Assembly: GCF_022788715.1 (NCBI RefSeq)
Contig: NZ_CP085167.1
Coordinates: forward strand, 989,001 to 1,053,000
Origin: Sulfitobacter sp. DSM 110093
GTDB lineage: Bacteria > Pseudomonadota > Alphaproteobacteria > Rhodobacterales > Rhodobacteraceae
Reading direction: 5' to 3'
DNA: 64,000 bases
Each line of letters opens with the position of its first letter. Within the stretch, counting starts at the first letter, position 1. Below the pieces are notes generated by a model. The model was not told the DNA's origin and did not search any database. It was given only the letters and a program-made list of their open reading frames with translations. Positions 19,430 through 26,321 of the stretch are shown piece after piece. The position numbers and the translations under genes are program-made.

Positions 19430-20107
19430 TTAACCGCAGATATTTTTCAGTTCGACCCCGTCCCACGGCAGGCCCACGTCAGACACGCGGCTTTGGGGCA
19501 GGGGAGCGACGGGCATGACCTCTGACAGCATGTCGTGCAACCGCTTGGTGCGTGGCGCTTGCGGGTCAAGCGCGCGACAGCAGACAAATTCCTCAACGAT
19601 TGAGCCCTGCTGTTCATAGCCGAAATCGAGGAACCGCGGCTGGGTTTCGACCTCGAAGAGGTAGGGGTCTGCGCTGGTGAACTGCTCGGAGGCCGCGCGC
19701 AGCGGCGAATAGCCAGTGAGCTTGCGGTTCTGCCATTGCCAGACATGGGTGACCTCATGCGCCAGCAGCATCGCGGCGATCAGCCCGATGCGGTCAGGGT
19801 GATCGGGGAGGTAGTCTTCGAGGTACCAGTCCTTGTCGAAAAGCACGTTATTGAACAGCGCCACGGCGGCGGGTTTGGAGGTGACGGTGTCACCTTCCTG
19901 CGGCGGCAGGATGCGCTCGCGGCAGGTGGTGCGCGGGCGCGGCTTGCGGGTGAAGGTAACGGCGCGGGTCGGGGCACCGTCGTGCAAGCGCACGCGGTCG
20001 TAGTCGACGGAACTGCCGTGGATGGTGGAGAGATAGGCACGCTCGTTCTCCGTCAGCGGACGACCGCAGGCGGTGAGGAGGAGGAGAAGGAGGAGGGCGC
20101 GGATCAT
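19430..20107 (-). CDS. Zincin-like putative lipoprotein (HEVTH), IS630 inserted at its start
   Basis: Encodes 225 residues. The N-terminus MIRALLLLLLLTACG gives a lipoprotein signal with Cys14. The mature protein contains AHEVTHVWQW, a match to the HExxH zinc-peptidase motif, with Glu-rich sequence downstream (YEQQGSIVEEFVCCRALD) that could supply a third ligand. A family name is not recognised; related roseobacter proteins are labelled hypothetical. The left end of an IS630 element lies 12 bases before the ATG, and the bases between (a run of C on the coding strand) contain no ribosome-binding site. Expression is therefore doubtful, although the frame is intact. Confidence 0.7.
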   Translation of the reverse strand: MIRALLLLLLLTACGRPLTENERAYLSTIHGSSVDYDRVRLHDGAPTRAVTFTRKPRPRTTCRERILPPQEGDTVTSKPAAVALFNNVLFDKDWYLEDYLPDHPDRIGLIAAMLLAHEVTHVWQWQNRKLTGYSPLRAASEQFTSADPYLFEVETQPRFLDFGYEQQGSIVEEFVCCRALDPQAPRTKRLHDMLSEVMPVAPLPQSRVSDVGLPWDGVELKNICG

Positions 20108-20119
20108 GGGGGGGAGTTA

Positions 20120-21172
20120 AAGCGTTTCTAACAAAACCTGAATCGCCGGGGATTCCCAAACTGGTCTGATTGTGATTCATCCTGTTTGGGAGGATGAACT
20201 ATGTCAGCACCTTTGCCATCAGCGCTTCGGGCGCGGTTTCAGAGATTTATTGAGGAAGGGTTAAGCGGGCGAGCGGCGGCAGCGCGCTTGAAGCTGTCGC
20301 CAGCAACGGGCGCACGATGGCGGCATCAGATCCAAACGACGGGCCGGGCTGATCCGGGCGTGCAGGGGCGTCCAAAAGGGTCAGGGAAATTGGCACCCCA
20401 TGTTGGTTTTTTCGAAGAGTTGATTGCTCAAGATCCTGATATCACATTGTTTGAGCTGCGTGATGCGCTTGCTGATGCAACCGGACTGCAGGTCCAGCAC
20501 TCTGCTATCGGGCATCTGCTAAAGCGCCTCGGGTTCACGCACAAAAAAAGTCACTGGTCGCTACCGAACGTTACCGTGCCAAAGTGAGGCGACGACGTGA
20601 GGACTGGTTCACACACCGTTTGCCAGCCATTGCGCGGATGCCGGAACGCGTTGTCTTTATTGATGAAACAGCGGTCAAAACGAATCTCACCCGGCTGCGC
20701 GGTTGGGCTCCGCGTGGCGAACGCCTGACGATGGATGCGCCCTTCGGCAGTTGGGGAACCCAAACCCTGATTGCGGGGCTGACACATGAGGCTCTGATCG
20801 CACCTTGGGTAATCAAAGGCGCGATGGATGGCCCTGCTTTCGCGGCCTATGTGCAAAAGGTCCTGATCCCCGAGATCGCGCCAGGCACGGCAGTCGTTCT
20901 CGACAACCTCGCGACCCATCGCAACAAAGAAGCCGCTGCGGCGCTCAAGGCTCATGGGTGCTGGTTCCTCTATCTGCCGCCATATTCACCAGATCTGAAC
21001 CCGATTGAGTTGGCTTTCTCCAAATTGAAGTCTCACCTCAGACGCATCAGTGCGCGATCATTCACCTCGGTGTTCGAAGCCCTTGGCGATATCTGCGCAA
21101 TGTACTCCCCGCAGGAGTGTTCAAACTACTTTCAGGCTGCCGGATATGCCTCAGGTTAAATTAGAAATGCTT
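20120..21172 (+). mobile_element. IS630-family insertion sequence, complete
   Basis: The element spans 1053 bp. Terminal inverted repeats are AAGCGTTTCTAACAAAACC at the left and, read inward from the right, AAGCATTTCTAATTTAACC; both continue with TGA, and they match at 18 of 22 positions. TA dinucleotides flank it at 20118-20119 and 21173-21174, the target duplication expected for IS630/Tc1-type elements. It holds one transposase gene in two overlapping frames. The copy looks intact and recent. It landed 12 bp upstream of the zincin-like lipoprotein ATG. Confidence 0.92.
20201..21159 (+). CDS. IS630 transposase, joined by -1 frameshift at an A7 run
   Basis: Two frames together encode one transposase. 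Frame A (20201-20587) holds the helix-turn-helix part (GLSGRAAAARLKLSPATGAR). Frame B (open through 21159) holds the DDE catalytic part: FIDETAVKTN, VLDNLATHRNKE and SPDLNPIELAFSKLK. At 20543-20549 a run of seven A lets the ribosome slip back one base. Reading then changes from HKKSHWS to HKKKSLVATERYRAKVRRRR, the continuous sequence usual for this family. GGAGG precedes the ATG. Programmed frameshifting of this type is known in IS630 elements; here it is inferred from sequence. Confidence 0.9.
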
Positions 21173-21271
21173 TAGGACTGGTGTGAGCGGCGGATCAAGG
21201 GGGAAGTTGGGGGTGCAAAGGCGAACGGTGCAGGTAACTGCTGTCGCGGTCCCGACCTATCGTTGCGTGGA

Positions 21272-21321
21272 AGCCCCTTCCCCATGGGGGGAAGGGAAGG
21301 GGCTATGCGCCAAAGGCGCAT
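21272..21321. repeat. Two adjacent perfect hairpins between the two IS elements
   Basis: Stem 1 is AGCCCCTTCCC (21272-21282) with its exact complement at 21294-21304, an 11-bp stem and 11-base loop. Stem 2 follows at once: ATGCGCC-AAA-GGCGCAT at 21305-21321. Neither is followed by a T run, so they are not typical terminators. They lie in the 190 bp between the IS630 right end and the stop of the split Abi-like gene, where no other feature is seen. Confidence 0.6.
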
Positions 21322-21551
21322 GGGATAGGGAACAGATGCGGCATGATACCGGCGGAATGGCGAACTATTGCCTTTCTCTTTCGGTCTGGCCCAAAAATAC
21401 GATGCACGAAGCAGTCATATTAATTAGGTATTGCACCACTGGGTCGCTGACAGTTGTTGGTATAGAACCTTGACCGTGCCCACTGAGATTATTCCTTCCA
21501 GTCGGAACGCTAGACTCGAGTAGGGAACGCAATGAGTTCATCTGAGCCTGC

Positions 21552-21559
21552 CAAAATGA
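21552..21559. repeat. Target-site duplication of IS256, left copy
   Basis: CAAAATGA immediately left of the IS256 end; identical to 22893-22900. Eight bases is the usual duplication length for this family. Confidence 0.9.
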
Positions 21560-22892
21560 GGGAGTGTCATGAACTTTGTGTATTTGGTCTGGCCCATGCG
21601 GGTTTTAGATACAGTCACGCATTGAAGCGATCCTCGAACATTATGGCGAAATGATTGCGGGCCGCAAACCATTCTCGAACATTCCGGCCGCCTTTCTCAA
21701 AGTTGCGGATCGCCAAGTAGATCAGTTTCGTGGCTGCGTCTTCGGTCGGGAACGATCCTCGCGTCTTGACCGATTTTCGGATTACCCGATTCAAGCTTTC
21801 AATTGCGTTGGTGGTGTAGATGATTTTCCGGATGGCGGGATCAAAGGCAAAGAACGGTATTACCTCTTGCCAAGCCCTGCGCCAGGCGGGGGCGATAGAG
21901 GCATATTTCCCGGCCCATTTTTCTTCAAAGGCATCCAGCTCCGCAGCGGCTTGCTCGGCTGTAGGGGCACTGTAAATCCGCCGCAGATCAGCGGCCACCT
22001 CCTTGCGATCTTTCCAGGCACAGAAATTCAACGAGTGGCGCACGAGATGGACAATGCACGTTTGCACGACCGTATCCGGAAAGGCTGCGGTAATGGCATC
22101 AGGGAAGCCCTTGAGGCCGTCCACGACCGCAATCAGGATGTCTTGAAGCCCACGGTTCTTCAGCTCTGTCATCACCGAGAGCCAGAATTTGGCGCCCTCG
22201 TTGTCAGCGATCCAAAGACCAAGAACCTCGCGCACGCCATCCCTGCTGACACCAAGGGCCACGTAGACGGCTTTGTTCTTGACCATGCGGCTATCGGCGT
22301 CGCGGATCTTGACCCGTAGAGCGTCAAAAATGACGATGGGATACATCCGGTCCAGCGCCCGGGATTGCCACTCTCGAACCTCATCCAACACCGCGTCGGT
22401 CACGCGGCTGATCAAGTCTGGCGAGACTTGCAGGCCATAGACGTCCTCAAGATGAGCACGGATGTCGCGGACCGTCAGACCAGCGGCGTAAAGCCCGATA
22501 ATCTTGTCATCCATCCCATCAATGCGGGTCTGTCCCTTCTTCACCAGTTCAGGCTCGAAGCTGCCGTCCCGGTCCCGCGGCACAGCGATAGGCAGTTCGC
22601 CGTCTTGCCCCTTCAATTTCTTAGCAGATGAGCCGTTGCGACGGTTGGCCTGATCAGGCGGGGCATCTTTTCCGTCTTCATAGCCCAGATGTGCAGTCAG
22701 CTCAGCCCCGAGCATCCGTTCCATCAGCTTGATCTTGAGCTCTTTCATTAGCCCGGCATCGCCAAGCAGATCTTCAGGCCGCTCGCAGCCCTTCAGCAGC
22801 TCGTCCAACAGTTCCTTGGAAATAGTCATAGTCCTTGCTCCTCTCAGGAAGCATGGACCAGATCGCAGTTACACAGAAGACCGGACACTCTC
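21560..22892 (-). mobile_element. IS256-family insertion sequence, complete
   Basis: The element spans 1333 bp, bounded by imperfect inverted repeats. The left end reads GGGAGTGTCATGAACTTTGT and the right end, read inward, GAGAGTGTCCGGTCTTCTGT; both continue GTA, with about 16 of 23 positions matching. Perfect 8-bp direct repeats CAAAATGA flank it. It carries one full-length transposase on the minus strand. The exact duplication and intact gene indicate a recent insertion, into the Abi-like gene. Confidence 0.93.
21615..22829 (-). CDS. IS256-family (mutator-type) transposase
   Basis: Encodes 404 residues, full length. The catalytic acidic residues are visible as Asp169 in VIFDALRVKIRD, Asp237 in AVVDGLKGFPDA and Glu344 in YTTNAIESLNRVIRKS. 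The C-x2-H segment TCIVHLVRHSLNF typical of mutator-type transposases lies between the second Asp and the Glu. The N-terminal region has the family's RNGSSAKKLKGQDGELPI pattern. No frameshift or stop is seen, so it is probably active. Confidence 0.96.
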   Translation of the reverse strand: MTISKELLDELLKGCERPEDLLGDAGLMKELKIKLMERMLGAELTAHLGYEDGKDAPPDQANRRNGSSAKKLKGQDGELPIAVPRDRDGSFEPELVKKGQTRIDGMDDKIIGLYAAGLTVRDIRAHLEDVYGLQVSPDLISRVTDAVLDEVREWQSRALDRMYPIVIFDALRVKIRDADSRMVKNKAVYVALGVSRDGVREVLGLWIADNEGAKFWLSVMTELKNRGLQDILIAVVDGLKGFPDAITAAFPDTVVQTCIVHLVRHSLNFCAWKDRKEVAADLRRIYSAPTAEQAAAELDAFEEKWAGKYASIAPAWRRAWQEVIPFFAFDPAIRKIIYTTNAIESLNRVIRKSVKTRGSFPTEDAATKLIYLAIRNFEKGGRNVREWFAARNHFAIMFEDRFNA

Positions 22893-22900
22893 CAAAATGA
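22893..22900. repeat. Target-site duplication of IS256, right copy
   Basis: CAAAATGA immediately right of the IS256 end; pairs with the copy at 21552-21559. Confidence 0.9.
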
Positions 22901-23646
22901 CGGTAAAATTTCGTTTTCAATTAAGCAAGATATCAGAGTTTTGGCGGTCGCGTTCTTCGGGTAGGCCCACCCGCGTTTATCGCAGATAGCTTTCATGGTG
23001 CTTTCGAACGACTTAAGGCAGTCATTAAGAGCTTCCTTATTCTTGCCTACTCGTAAATTTTCGAAGGCACCAAAAAACTCCTGTCGTGCTCCTGCGTATA
23101 TTTGTCCGCTTAGAACGGTCAAAGCTGGCTTGACGATTTCCTGGTGAGTAAATTCAGAATCTTTCCTTAGGATACGCCCATCTACATAGGAGTATCCTAG
23201 CCCGTGTTCTGCAAGCCTCTCGTTTGCTTCAGCAATCGTTTCATCGGCAATCTCGCCATGTTTAATTGACCAATCTCTGCAAACTACATCAATGCATTTC
23301 AGCGTGAGTTCGATTACATCAATCGCTTTTACCGTTTCTTCTGTAGACAGGAAGAAGCTTGCAAGCTCAGTCCGAAAGTTATCTTTTTGATATGTAGGGG
23401 ATAGATGAAAGACACCATATTCCTTTCGAAGGGTCATCACAATTAGCTTAAAAGCCTCGGCTGTTTGCCCTGGTCCAAAGCTATTGCGGTAGTCGTCCTC
23501 GTTTCCAATAGCCTCATCCCAGATGTGAACCATTTGTACTCGGAAGGCTTCTGGAACTTCATTGTAAATATAGACTTCAAGAATATCTCCTTCAATTTTC
23601 TTAAGTCGTTTCGAATACAAATCAAAGATAGGCAAGCTCTACCCCT

Positions 23647-25602
23647 TCAAACATCCAACTCCTCCACAAACTGCGCATTCTGCTGAATATAAGCAAACCG
23701 CATCTCCGGCTTCTTCCCCATCAAGCGCTCCACCAGATCCCCGGTCTCACCCGGCACGTCCTCGTCCACAGTCACGCGGATCAGCTTGCGGGTCTCGGGG
23801 TCCATCGTGGTCTCTTTCAGGTCCTTCGCGTCCATCTCGCCCAGACCCTTGAAGCGGCTCACGTCGATCTTGCCTTTGCCGCCGAGACCCTTCTCCAACC
23901 ACATGTTTTTCTCTGCCTCATCAAGGCAATAGACCCGTTTCGCCCCCTGCGTCAGGCGGAACAGCGGCGGGCAGGCGAGGTACAGATGCCCCGCGTCGAT
24001 CAGCGGGCGCATTTGGGTGAAGAAAAACGTCATCAACAGCGACGCGATATGCGCGCCGTCGACGTCGGCGTCGGTCATGATAATGATCTTGTCATAGCGC
24101 AGATCGTCGAGGTTGAATTTCGTGCCCATGCCGACGCCAAGCGCTTCGCAGAGGTCGTTGATCTCGGCGTTGGTGGTGATCTTGCTTGAGGCTGCCCCGA
24201 GCACGTTCAGGATTTTACCCTTTAGCGGCAGCAGCGCCTGCGTATTACGGTTGCGCGCGCCCTTGCCAGAGCCACCCGCCGAGTCGCCCTCGACGATGAA
24301 CAACTCCGTGCCTTCGCGGGTCTTGCTGGTGCAGTCGGTCAGCTTGCCGGGCAGACGCAACTTCTTGGTGGCGGATTTACGGGCGGTTTCCTTTTCCTGA
24401 CGGCGGCGCATCCGCTCTTCGGCGCGCAGGACAAGGAAATCGAGGATCGCACCGGCGGATTTCGTGTCCGCTGCCAGCCAGTTGTCAAAGTGGTCGCGCA
24501 CGGCGTTCTCAACCAGACGCGCGGCCTCGGTCGTGGCGAGGCGGTCTTTGGTCTGGCCCACGAATTCCGGCTCGCGGATGAAGCAAGACACCAGCGCGCA
24601 GCCGCCCGTAATCAGGTCTTCGCGGGTGATGTCCTTGGCTTTGCGGTTGTTCGCCAACTCGCCATAGGCCCGGATGCCCTTGAGGATCGCGGCCCAAAAG
24701 CCGCCCTCATGTGTGCCGCCCTCGGGCGTGGGGACGGTGTTACAGTAGGACTGGATGAAGCCATCGCGGGCAGGGGTCCAGTTGATCGCCCATTCGACCT
24801 TACCGGGCACACCAAAGCGTTCTTGGAACTCGACGGTGCCCGCGAAGGGGTTTTCGGCATAGGTTGTTGATTTACCCAAGGTTTCGCGCAGGTAATCAGC
24901 CAGACCGCCGGGGAAGTGGAACGTCGCCTCCATCGGCGTGTCGCCGTCTTCGATCTCGGACTTCCAGCGGATTTCGACGCCGGAGAAGAGATAGGCCTTA
25001 GAGCGCACCATCTTGAGCAGACGTGCGGGTTTGAAGCGGTGTGCGCCAAAGATTTGCTCGTCAGCGTGGAAGGTGACGGTGGTGCCGCGCCGATTGGGGG
25101 CTGCGCCGATTTTCTCGACCGGGCCTTGCGGGATTCCGCGTGAAAACCGCTGCTCGAACAACTCGCGGTTCCGCGCGACCTGCACCACCATCGAATCCGA
25201 CAGCGCGTTAACCACGGATGCACCAACCCCGTGCAGACCGCCCGAGGTCTGATAGGCCTTGCCCGAGAACTTGCCGCCCGCGTGCAGCGTGCAGAGGATC
25301 ACTTCGAGCGCGGATTTTTCAGGGAATTTCGGGTGCGGGTCGATCGGGATGCCGCGGCCGTTGTCGCGAATGGTGACCGAATAATCGGCGTTCAACTCCA
25401 CCTCGATCCGGTTGGCATGGCCCGCCACGGCTTCGTCCATCGAGTTGTCGAGCACTTCGGCCACAAGGTGGTGCAGCGCACGCTCATCGGTGCCGCCGAT
25501 ATACATGCCGGGGCGCTTGCGGACGGGCTCCAGCCCCTCCAGCACTTCGATGGAGGAGGCATCGTATTCGGTGGGTTCCTGGCCGGAAAGAAGATCGGTC
25601 AT
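23647..25602 (-). CDS. parE: DNA topoisomerase IV subunit B
   Basis: Encodes 651 residues. It is the ATPase subunit of topoisomerase IV, which decatenates daughter chromosomes. The GHKL ATPase region shows EVLDNSMDEAVAGHA, DNGRGIPIDPHPKFP and TSGGLHGVGASVVNALS. The TOPRIM region shows EGDSAGGSGKGARNRNTQA and TDADVDGAHI. The length (shorter than GyrB) and the PIDPHPKFPEKSALEVIL form favour ParE over GyrB. The stop codon region doubles as the ribosome-binding site of the Abi-like gene 11 bases downstream, so that foreign gene sits exactly at the 3' end of parE. Confidence 0.95.
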   Translation of the reverse strand: MTDLLSGQEPTEYDASSIEVLEGLEPVRKRPGMYIGGTDERALHHLVAEVLDNSMDEAVAGHANRIEVELNADYSVTIRDNGRGIPIDPHPKFPEKSALEVILCTLHAGGKFSGKAYQTSGGLHGVGASVVNALSDSMVVQVARNRELFEQRFSRGIPQGPVEKIGAAPNRRGTTVTFHADEQIFGAHRFKPARLLKMVRSKAYLFSGVEIRWKSEIEDGDTPMEATFHFPGGLADYLRETLGKSTTYAENPFAGTVEFQERFGVPGKVEWAINWTPARDGFIQSYCNTVPTPEGGTHEGGFWAAILKGIRAYGELANNRKAKDITREDLITGGCALVSCFIREPEFVGQTKDRLATTEAARLVENAVRDHFDNWLAADTKSAGAILDFLVLRAEERMRRRQEKETARKSATKKLRLPGKLTDCTSKTREGTELFIVEGDSAGGSGKGARNRNTQALLPLKGKILNVLGAASSKITTNAEINDLCEALGVGMGTKFNLDDLRYDKIIIMTDADVDGAHIASLLMTFFFTQMRPLIDAGHLYLACPPLFRLTQGAKRVYCLDEAEKNMWLEKGLGGKGKIDVSRFKGLGEMDAKDLKETTMDPETRKLIRVTVDEDVPGETGDLVERLMGKKPEMRFAYIQQNAQFVEELDV

Positions 25603-25698: not shown

Positions 25699-26076
25699 TC
25701 AGCTGGCTCTGGCACGCAGCCAATCGGCAAGGGTCTCTTCGTCGATGCGGCCTTGGGCCACTTCGCGGATCAGGTCGCCCGCCTCGACGGTGTCGTGGTC
25801 AAGTTTTACCCCATTGAGATCAAGACAGATATCGAGAACGAGATGCGCGGTTCGCTTATTCGCGTCGTTAAAGACATGCCCAGTGGCAACCGCTACGCAA
25901 TAAGCCGCAGCGAGGTCAAAGACATCTTCGATCATGCCGTAGACCAGTCGGTTGTCGACCCGTGCCAGCGCTCCTTCGAGTGATTTGTCCAAGGCCATGC
26001 CGGCTAGCTCGCCGGGGTTTAACGCGGAATCGTGGATCCTGACGACGAGGTCAGGTGAAAGCAGCACATAGGTCAT
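25699..26076 (-). CDS. doc: Doc-like Fic-family toxin (death on curing)
   Basis: Encodes 125 residues. The Fic motif HVFNDANKRTAH lies at residues 67-78, in the form seen in phage P1 Doc, which phosphorylates and inactivates EF-Tu rather than AMPylating. The start MTYVLLSPDLVVRIHDSAL is also Doc-like. Its ATG overlaps the antitoxin stop by four bases (ATGA), a typical toxin-antitoxin arrangement. It lies 96 bp upstream of the parE start on the same strand, so parE could receive read-through. Confidence 0.9.
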   Translation of the reverse strand: MTYVLLSPDLVVRIHDSALNPGELAGMALDKSLEGALARVDNRLVYGMIEDVFDLAAAYCVAVATGHVFNDANKRTAHLVLDICLDLNGVKLDHDTVEAGDLIREVAQGRIDEETLADWLRARAS

Positions 26077-26321
26077 TTATCTTTAAGATAGTCCAGAACC
26101 GGCTGGTTGATATGCTTGCGCCGCGCAATACTCTCCATCACCTCATCCAGTGTCGCCACGCGCGGCTCCTCCTGCAAAGTCGCCGCTGCCGGTACGAAAT
26201 ACCCCACGCAGCGCGAGTTCTTCATCACCGCGACGGGCTTGCCGCCAGAGCGTTCCAACACTTTATGCGGTTCGCGCATTTCAGTCATGGTGGCGATGTG
26301 ATTGGTATGGATACGGGTCAT
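26073..26321 (-). CDS. phd: Phd/YefM-like antitoxin
   Basis: Encodes 82 residues, in antitoxin position directly before doc. The N-terminal half (REPHKVLERSGGKPVAVMKNSRCVGYFVPA) fits the Phd/YefM DNA-binding fold, where a strand-rich segment around KPVAVMKN is conserved. The C-terminal half (DEVMESIARRKHINQPVLDYL) would wrap the toxin. An 18-bp perfect palindrome lies 15 bp upstream of the ATG and is the likely operator for autoregulation. Similarity is weaker than for doc, but order, overlap and size support the call. Confidence 0.82.
   Translation of the reverse strand: MTRIHTNHIATMTEMREPHKVLERSGGKPVAVMKNSRCVGYFVPAAATLQEEPRVATLDEVMESIARRKHINQPVLDYLKDK

Follow-up and report, generated by a model that had tools for sequence, protein, structure and literature searches.

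The window analysed here, 64,000 nucleotides of the Sulfitobacter sp. DSM 110093 genome (contig NZ_CP085167.1, positions 989,001 to 1,053,000), contains a gene of the AbiJ_NTD4-HEPN type that lies directly behind the topoisomerase gene parE and is interrupted by an insertion sequence (IS) of the IS256 family. We consider it likely that the gene was acquired horizontally into a refillable slot behind parE and was then broken by IS256. That it is a broken AbiJ-HEPN gene is close to certain, and the slot behind parE is very probably a recurrent one, which is beyond what the first-pass annotation, made from the window alone, could see. The pieces of the gene and the element between them are:

22893..23635, minus strand: 5′ piece of the AbiJ_NTD4-HEPN gene (STM4504/CBY_0614 family), with a TTG start at 23635
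22893..22900, no strand: right copy of the 8-bp target repeat, CAAAATGA
21560..22892, minus strand: IS256-family element of 1333 bp, its ends taken from comparison with three other genomic copies
21615..22829, minus strand: IS256 transposase, 404 amino acids (405.9 bits, cut-off 150)
21552..21559, no strand: left copy of the 8-bp target repeat, CAAAATGA
21365..21551, minus strand: 3′ piece, a 61-residue tail with RNNLSGHGQG and the stop codon (from DUF7014, NF046078 and the homologue alignment)

The first-pass annotation had described a 930-base frame of 309 codons plus stop with Trp248 at the junction, and both arithmetic and coordinates hold: the pieces are 743 and 187 nt long, and the split codon TGG, read off the two separate pieces without joining them, gives a tryptophan that stands at the same place in all 16 aligned homologues. 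The TTG start, at the noted distance of 11 nt behind the end of parE (stop codon 23647-23649), agrees with the homologues, whose first residue aligns with it exactly or to within two positions; the intact homologues (n=16) are about 303-323 residues long. At present the frame of the 5′ piece runs some 15 residues into IS256, giving an open reading frame (orf) of 263 amino acids at 22844-23635.

Both pieces match the same family models. The 5′ piece matches Pfam AbiJ_NTD4 at residues 5-171 (71 bits, cut-off 34), its residues 179-245 correspond to positions 8-74 of the Pfam model DUF7014, and it matches the NCBIfam model STM4504/CBY_0614 (NF046078) over model positions 1-225 with 242.5 bits (cut-off 150). 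The tail matches DUF7014 at positions 78-134 of 137 (35.4 bits, cut-off 27) and NF046078 at positions 227-281 of 281 with 61.5 bits, being too short for the whole-protein cut-off of 150. The homologues do not end at residue 248 and the tail is not an unrelated sequence; as judged by sequence it belongs to the same family as the 5′ piece. A search for Abi_C and HEPN domains, which had been suggested, succeeded in part: the Pfam copy used calls DUF7014 for that domain and not Abi_C, and PF14355 (Abi_C) together with PF18863 (AbiJ_NTD4) are the precomputed domains of the 120 homologues listed, out of 3370 for an intact relative.

The R-x4-6-H motif of HEPN type that had been recognised in the tail is present, as R-N-x3-G-H, in the tail and in all 16 intact homologues of the alignment, and a structure model of a homologue has a HEPN-like fold. 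A sequence search of the PDB with the family profile returned a single match, to a ribosomal protein (E 0.54), and in PADLOC the 5′ piece has one weak match (PDC-S32, 3.8e-5) and the tail none. Anantharaman et al. (2013, PMC3710099) give CBY_0614 as the exemplar of AbiJ-NTD4. The window gene resembles AbiJ_NTD4-HEPN proteins in having both domains, a similar length and the R-x5-H motif, and differs in being cut by IS256 and in lying in the parE slot; no parE turned up in the DNA fetched around the 16 intact homologues. The intact protein would have combined an N-terminal sensor or regulatory domain with a HEPN domain at the C-terminus, which is expected to work as a suicidal ribonuclease (RNase). 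The recent insertion cuts off its final 61 residues, and with them the R-x5-H motif and the C-terminal helix. Of the earlier claim that the active site was removed, the loss of the motif stands; RNase activity and its loss are predicted, as is an anti-phage function by abortive infection.

The clean split by IS256 is confirmed by the comparison of genomic copies, which fixes the ends of the element and the 8-bp repeats. The element has the transposase, the inverted ends (GGGAGTGTC / GAGAGTGTC) and the target repeat of its family. Three further near-identical copies are present in the genome, two of them identical over 1332 nt and one at 98.6%, each flanked by its own 8-bp repeat, and the insertion is recent, because two copies are identical over 1332 nt. 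Matches to the element are found on Pseudosulfitobacter and Sulfitobacter plasmids. Placing the repeat at 21551-21558 as CCAAAATG was rejected, being one base off by the comparison of IS copies. An IS-interrupted Abi gene is as such ordinary.

The gene is richer in A+T than its neighbours, as first described, with a G+C content (GC) of 0.43 in the 5′ piece and 0.47 in the tail region, against 0.62 in parE and 0.60 in the window. A 300-bp stretch below 0.48 GC occurs in 15 of the 631 900-bp stretches of the window, all at 21001-24300, and this is the only place in the window that passes the low-GC criterion used below. The proposal of recent acquisition is supported by the absence of the STM4504/CBY_0614 family, above its cut-off, from all other genomes of genus and family: it is found in 1/62 genus genomes and 1/394 family genomes, the window's own both times, with partial matches below the cut-off in four further family genomes. 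Elsewhere, homologues are common, with 336 matching plasmid records, none of which reaches 60% identity, and four phage-collection records. The uninterrupted gene at this parE position, which the annotation had suggested looking for, was found in no genome of a sample with one genome per species; congeners carry other genes there. On the Escherichia coli plasmid NZ_CP134371.1 (15919-17448, hit H24) a STM4504/CBY_0614 gene is apparently interrupted by an IS1B-like element, as read from the annotation and a two-piece match.

The slot is bounded by two conserved walls:

23647..25602, minus strand: parE, topoisomerase IV subunit B, the left wall (TIGR01055, 755.9 bits, cut-off 723.35)
21226..21342, minus strand: structured hairpin module, the right wall (one match in this genome)

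A slot was scored as cargo-like if the 900 bp behind the parE stop codon contain a 300-bp stretch below 0.48 GC. Such slots are present in 47 of 57 genus genomes and in 50/104 from other genera (13/28 in a first sample and 37/76 in a replicate), low GC being a proxy for cargo and not proof of it because housekeeping-looking matches occur among the orfs of low-GC slots. Eight relatives with 98-99% identical ParE, whose main flanking pieces have 82.6-91.8% DNA identity, fill the space from parE to the following gene in seven different ways: with a HEPN-like gene in broken form, an HNH-like gene (in two of the genomes, its Pfam match lying below cut-off), a NYN gene, a small DUF6693-cluster gene, an opposite-strand BRCT gene, a two-gene set, and a protease-like gene, the last label being a reading without a Pfam match. 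Varied cargo between the same walls in relatives marks the slot as a core-gene-flanked hotspot. The cargo has the orientation of parE in 69 of the 89 slots with an assigned orf.

Pfam scans of 37 genus genomes with cargo gave matches above cut-off in 20, below cut-off only in two, and none in 15 (E 0.01). The families found are AbiU2 and HEPN (three each), NYN and GIY-YIG (two each), and, once each, Abi_alpha, Abi_C, Mrr, MrcB_N, HNH_2, RVT_1, DUF3800, DUF4238, DUF6693 and BRCT. Abi-, HEPN- or restriction-named cargo above cut-off is thus present in 10/37 genomes, a count that stands without a baseline set; among the 25 listed of 35 PADLOC families matched by 38 cargo orfs are PDC-S47, PDC-S02 and a model for type IV restriction. 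The 45 cargo orfs from other genera include matches to AbiU2 and HEPN_RiboL-PSP (two each), AbiTii, MrcB_N, DUF3800 and DUF4238 in Pfam, and to AriA, PD-T7-4, TIR-TM, PDC-S31 and PDC-S48 in PADLOC.

Some slot genes appear to be decayed. At locus L061 (4452-5305) the HEPN-like cargo gene has likewise broken up, into two orfs that overlap, and is a second case of decay in the slot; the cargo matches behind parE in L256 and L264 have one in-frame stop each (TAG and TGA) and are possibly decayed; and slot orfs in L076 (1820-2618) and L092 (138-1063) are in pieces or overlapping and may be decaying cargo. The slot gene of L046 (740-1420) is reverse-transcriptase-like (RVT_1, 59.5 bits), and PADLOC matches of the reverse-transcriptase class occur in the same cargo set.

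The genus sample comprises 60 genomes minus G053 (no parE match), G055 (parE cut by a contig end) and G049/L089 (contig end), which leaves 57 with the window counted in, and flanks were accepted from 441 nt up. The first sample of other genera comprises 29 loci minus L110 (contig end), and the replicate 79 stretches minus L176, L194 and L246 (flank below 600 nt), which leaves 76 further genera. Ten sampled family genomes stand outside the counts, eight lacking a complete parE end together with G150 and G162. For L057, L064, L068 and L085 the names of the cargo orfs come solely from clustering with a scanned mate, and the Pfam cargo scan excludes L070, L073, L084, L088 and L097.

The hairpin module has matches in 15/60 genus genomes, one or two in each and mostly behind parE, and its ortholog in L061 folds 4.2 standard deviations better than shuffled sequences. 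It was rejected as a dispersed repeat in view of this distribution and because the window's genome gives a single match to it. Part of the genus has it between the cargo and the next gene; in the cargo-poor loci L069, L072 and L074 it lies within about 70 nt behind parE, and because it is present there it looks like a wall and not like the end of a cassette. L069 (genome G024) carries two modules in tandem and lacks low-GC cargo, and its parE end is altered (GATGTGTGA).

Slot content is associated with the 3′ end of parE itself:

23647..23667, minus strand: last 21 nt of parE, GTGGAGGAGTTGGATGTTTGA, proposed as a docking and translation-start sequence (from the GATGTTT association)

In cargo-like slots parE ends with the codons GTG GAG GAG TTG GAT GTT TGA, with few synonymous changes, and the last codons, GAGGAGTTGGATGTTT, are synonymously conserved mainly where low-GC DNA adjoins. 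Elsewhere in parE, in 23 such genus genomes, GTT makes up 6% of valine, GAT 35% of aspartate and TTG 13% of leucine codons. The core GATGTTT is present in 47/47 cargo-like and 4/10 other slots in the genus (p 5.8e-6), in 13/13 and 3/15 in the first other-genera sample (p 1.5e-5), and in 20/37 and 4/39 in the replicate (p 5.2e-5), or 80/97 and 11/64 over all samples; these p-values are too strong because the genomes are related. The threshold of 0.48 and the core were fixed on the first two sets and applied unchanged to the replicate. With a looser measure of the site (at most two mismatches), GC thresholds of 0.46, 0.48 and 0.50 gave p values of 0.004-0.007 in the genus and 7e-5 to 0.0013 in the family. 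The only exact occurrence of GAGGAGTTGGATGTTT in this genome is at the parE end; other places give one match with a single mismatch and two matches with two.

The GGAGGAG within this end is a candidate ribosome-binding site. Among 31 forward genus cargo orfs, the first start is a TTG overlapping the parE stop codon in 19, in the frame of the ATG of GATGTT in five and later in seven, with starts assigned mechanically and a third per frame expected by chance; the window gene is of the later kind, with its own TTG 11 nt further on. The core is kept in 15/20 slots with reverse and 60/69 with forward cargo, and because reverse cargo keeps it too, the supply of start signals is not the whole reason for its conservation.

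We read the region as a slot, genus- and family-wide, that usually holds one compact and often defence-like gene at a time, inserted between parE and the hairpin module. The gene often lies where the parE end could provide both a Shine-Dalgarno sequence, GGAGGAG, and the start codon (the TTG overlapping the stop, or the ATG in GATGTT). The slot could be refilled through homologous recombination within parE on one side and the downstream module on the other, by gene transfer agents or conjugation, for instance, both of which are common in this group of bacteria; we take homologous recombination for the likeliest main route, at slightly less than an even chance. The main alternative, though a rather unlikely one, is site-specific insertion, in which GAGGAGTTGGATGTTT at the parE 3′ end would be the attachment site of a trans-acting system for single-gene cassettes in either orientation. 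The synonymous conservation of the final codons despite the rarity of GTT and GAT elsewhere in parE speaks for it, as do the association with GATGTTT in three samples and its persistence with reverse cargo (15/20 against 11/64). However, the far ends of 58 slots contain no near copy of the 18-nt parE site, the best having five mismatches, and at six or fewer mismatches there is a mild excess (35/58 slots against 70/174 mononucleotide shuffles); no recombinase family was found among the scanned cargo orfs (40 and 45, an IS630-like pair in L044, for example, being outside the scan); 17 of the 37 cargo-like replicate slots lack the exact core; and relatedness overstates the p-values. It is doubtful, in particular, that the last 18-21 nt or so of parE are a docking site for dispersed, recombinase-free single-gene defence cassettes, inserted in trans and in either orientation, with the same nucleotides serving many forward cassettes as ribosome-binding site and start codon.

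Homing is improbable. HNH or GIY-YIG cargo would cut empty parE ends and be copied in by repair, and other cargo would replace it by recombination; there is a short conserved site at the junction, and GIY-YIG matches are above cut-off in L051 and L077, with HNH_2 in L092 and a weak HNH match in L062, but most of the scanned cargo lies outside the homing-endonuclease families.

We judge it equally improbable that the region is simply tolerant of inserted genes and that the broken Abi gene is a chance passenger, as behind many core genes. In favour of this reading, the DNA behind gyrB holds 16 clusters per 20 genomes against 14/20 behind parE in the same genomes, and because the gyrB flank is also varied, diversity of gene content alone is not special to parE. 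Of the cargo-like slots, 8/97 have no assigned orf; the cargo of other genera includes the housekeeping-looking matches ABC_tran and HTH_25; and several matches to the cargo queries described next are weak, with E-values down to 1e-4. The gyrB control is not clean, and therefore the 5′ side of parE was used as an additional one: it passes the low-GC criterion in 0/30 genus genomes against 23/30 on the 3′ side, and in 3/28 against 13/28 in other genera. Mean GC over the first 800 bp is 0.46-0.48 behind parE and 0.53-0.58 behind gyrB. Three cargo proteins, each searched against 388 family genomes, gave 21 matches, 14 of them behind parE (8/10 for the HEPN protein of L071, 2/6 for the protease-like protein of L067 and 4/5 for AbiU2 of L060). 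For two of the 14 the distance from the parE stop codon is about 0.67 and 1.2 kb; six of the 14 genomes are new to the study and eight were already in the family sample.

It is very unlikely that the 263-residue product left after truncation keeps a function, such as that of a free regulatory domain: the 5′ piece is still an open frame, but the identical IS copies indicate a recent insertion and the lost motif is present in 16/16 homologues.

Defence-island hotspots flanked by core genes are known from Enterobacterales and Pseudomonas. The parE slot shares with them conserved walls, fast turnover and cargo of defence families, and differs in holding mostly one gene per genome, in the absence of a recombinase among the scanned orfs, and in its conserved parE-terminal DNA, which may supply translation start signals. 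Integron gene cassettes also consist of single genes followed by a structured element, as the single genes of the parE slot are followed by the hairpin module. An integron-like reading was nevertheless rejected, for the far end has no near copy of the parE site (at best 5/18 mismatches) and the hairpin also lies behind cargo-poor parE, where low-GC cargo is missing. Tn7-like elements attach downstream of the essential gene glmS, and the parE cargo is comparable in that it directly follows an essential gene left intact, the end of whose coding sequence may serve for recognition; unlike in that system, no Tn7-like protein turned up among the scanned cargo orfs, though no dedicated search was made. 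In the consulted parts of Benler et al. (2021, PMC8649781), ParE is the toxin and not the topoisomerase as an insertion site. Among the titles and abstract openings listed in searches of the open-access literature, none concerns a parE slot. In our view a mostly one-gene slot with conserved parE-terminal DNA is a new form of defence hotspot. A fixed one-gene address across much of the family offers candidates for single-gene phage-defence proteins, many of which belong to no named family, and lets gene gain, swap and breakage be watched in a simple natural setting; the link between synonymous codons in an essential gene and its cargo makes the refilling mechanism directly testable.

Two further features lie beyond the hairpin module:

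20120..21171, plus strand: IS630-family element, with orfs at 20201-20587 and 20584-21159 (NF033545, 130.4 bits on the second orf, cut-off 100)
19430..20107, minus strand: conserved neighbour gene beyond the slot, 225 amino acids (no NCBIfam match)

The IS630 element is missing at the same place in the close relative L061, in which the equivalent of window position 20119 joins that of 21172. Upstream of parE, at 25699-26321, a Doc toxin gene (TIGR01550, 69.3 bits) lies with a small overlapping partner, and this region aligns in all eight closest relatives.
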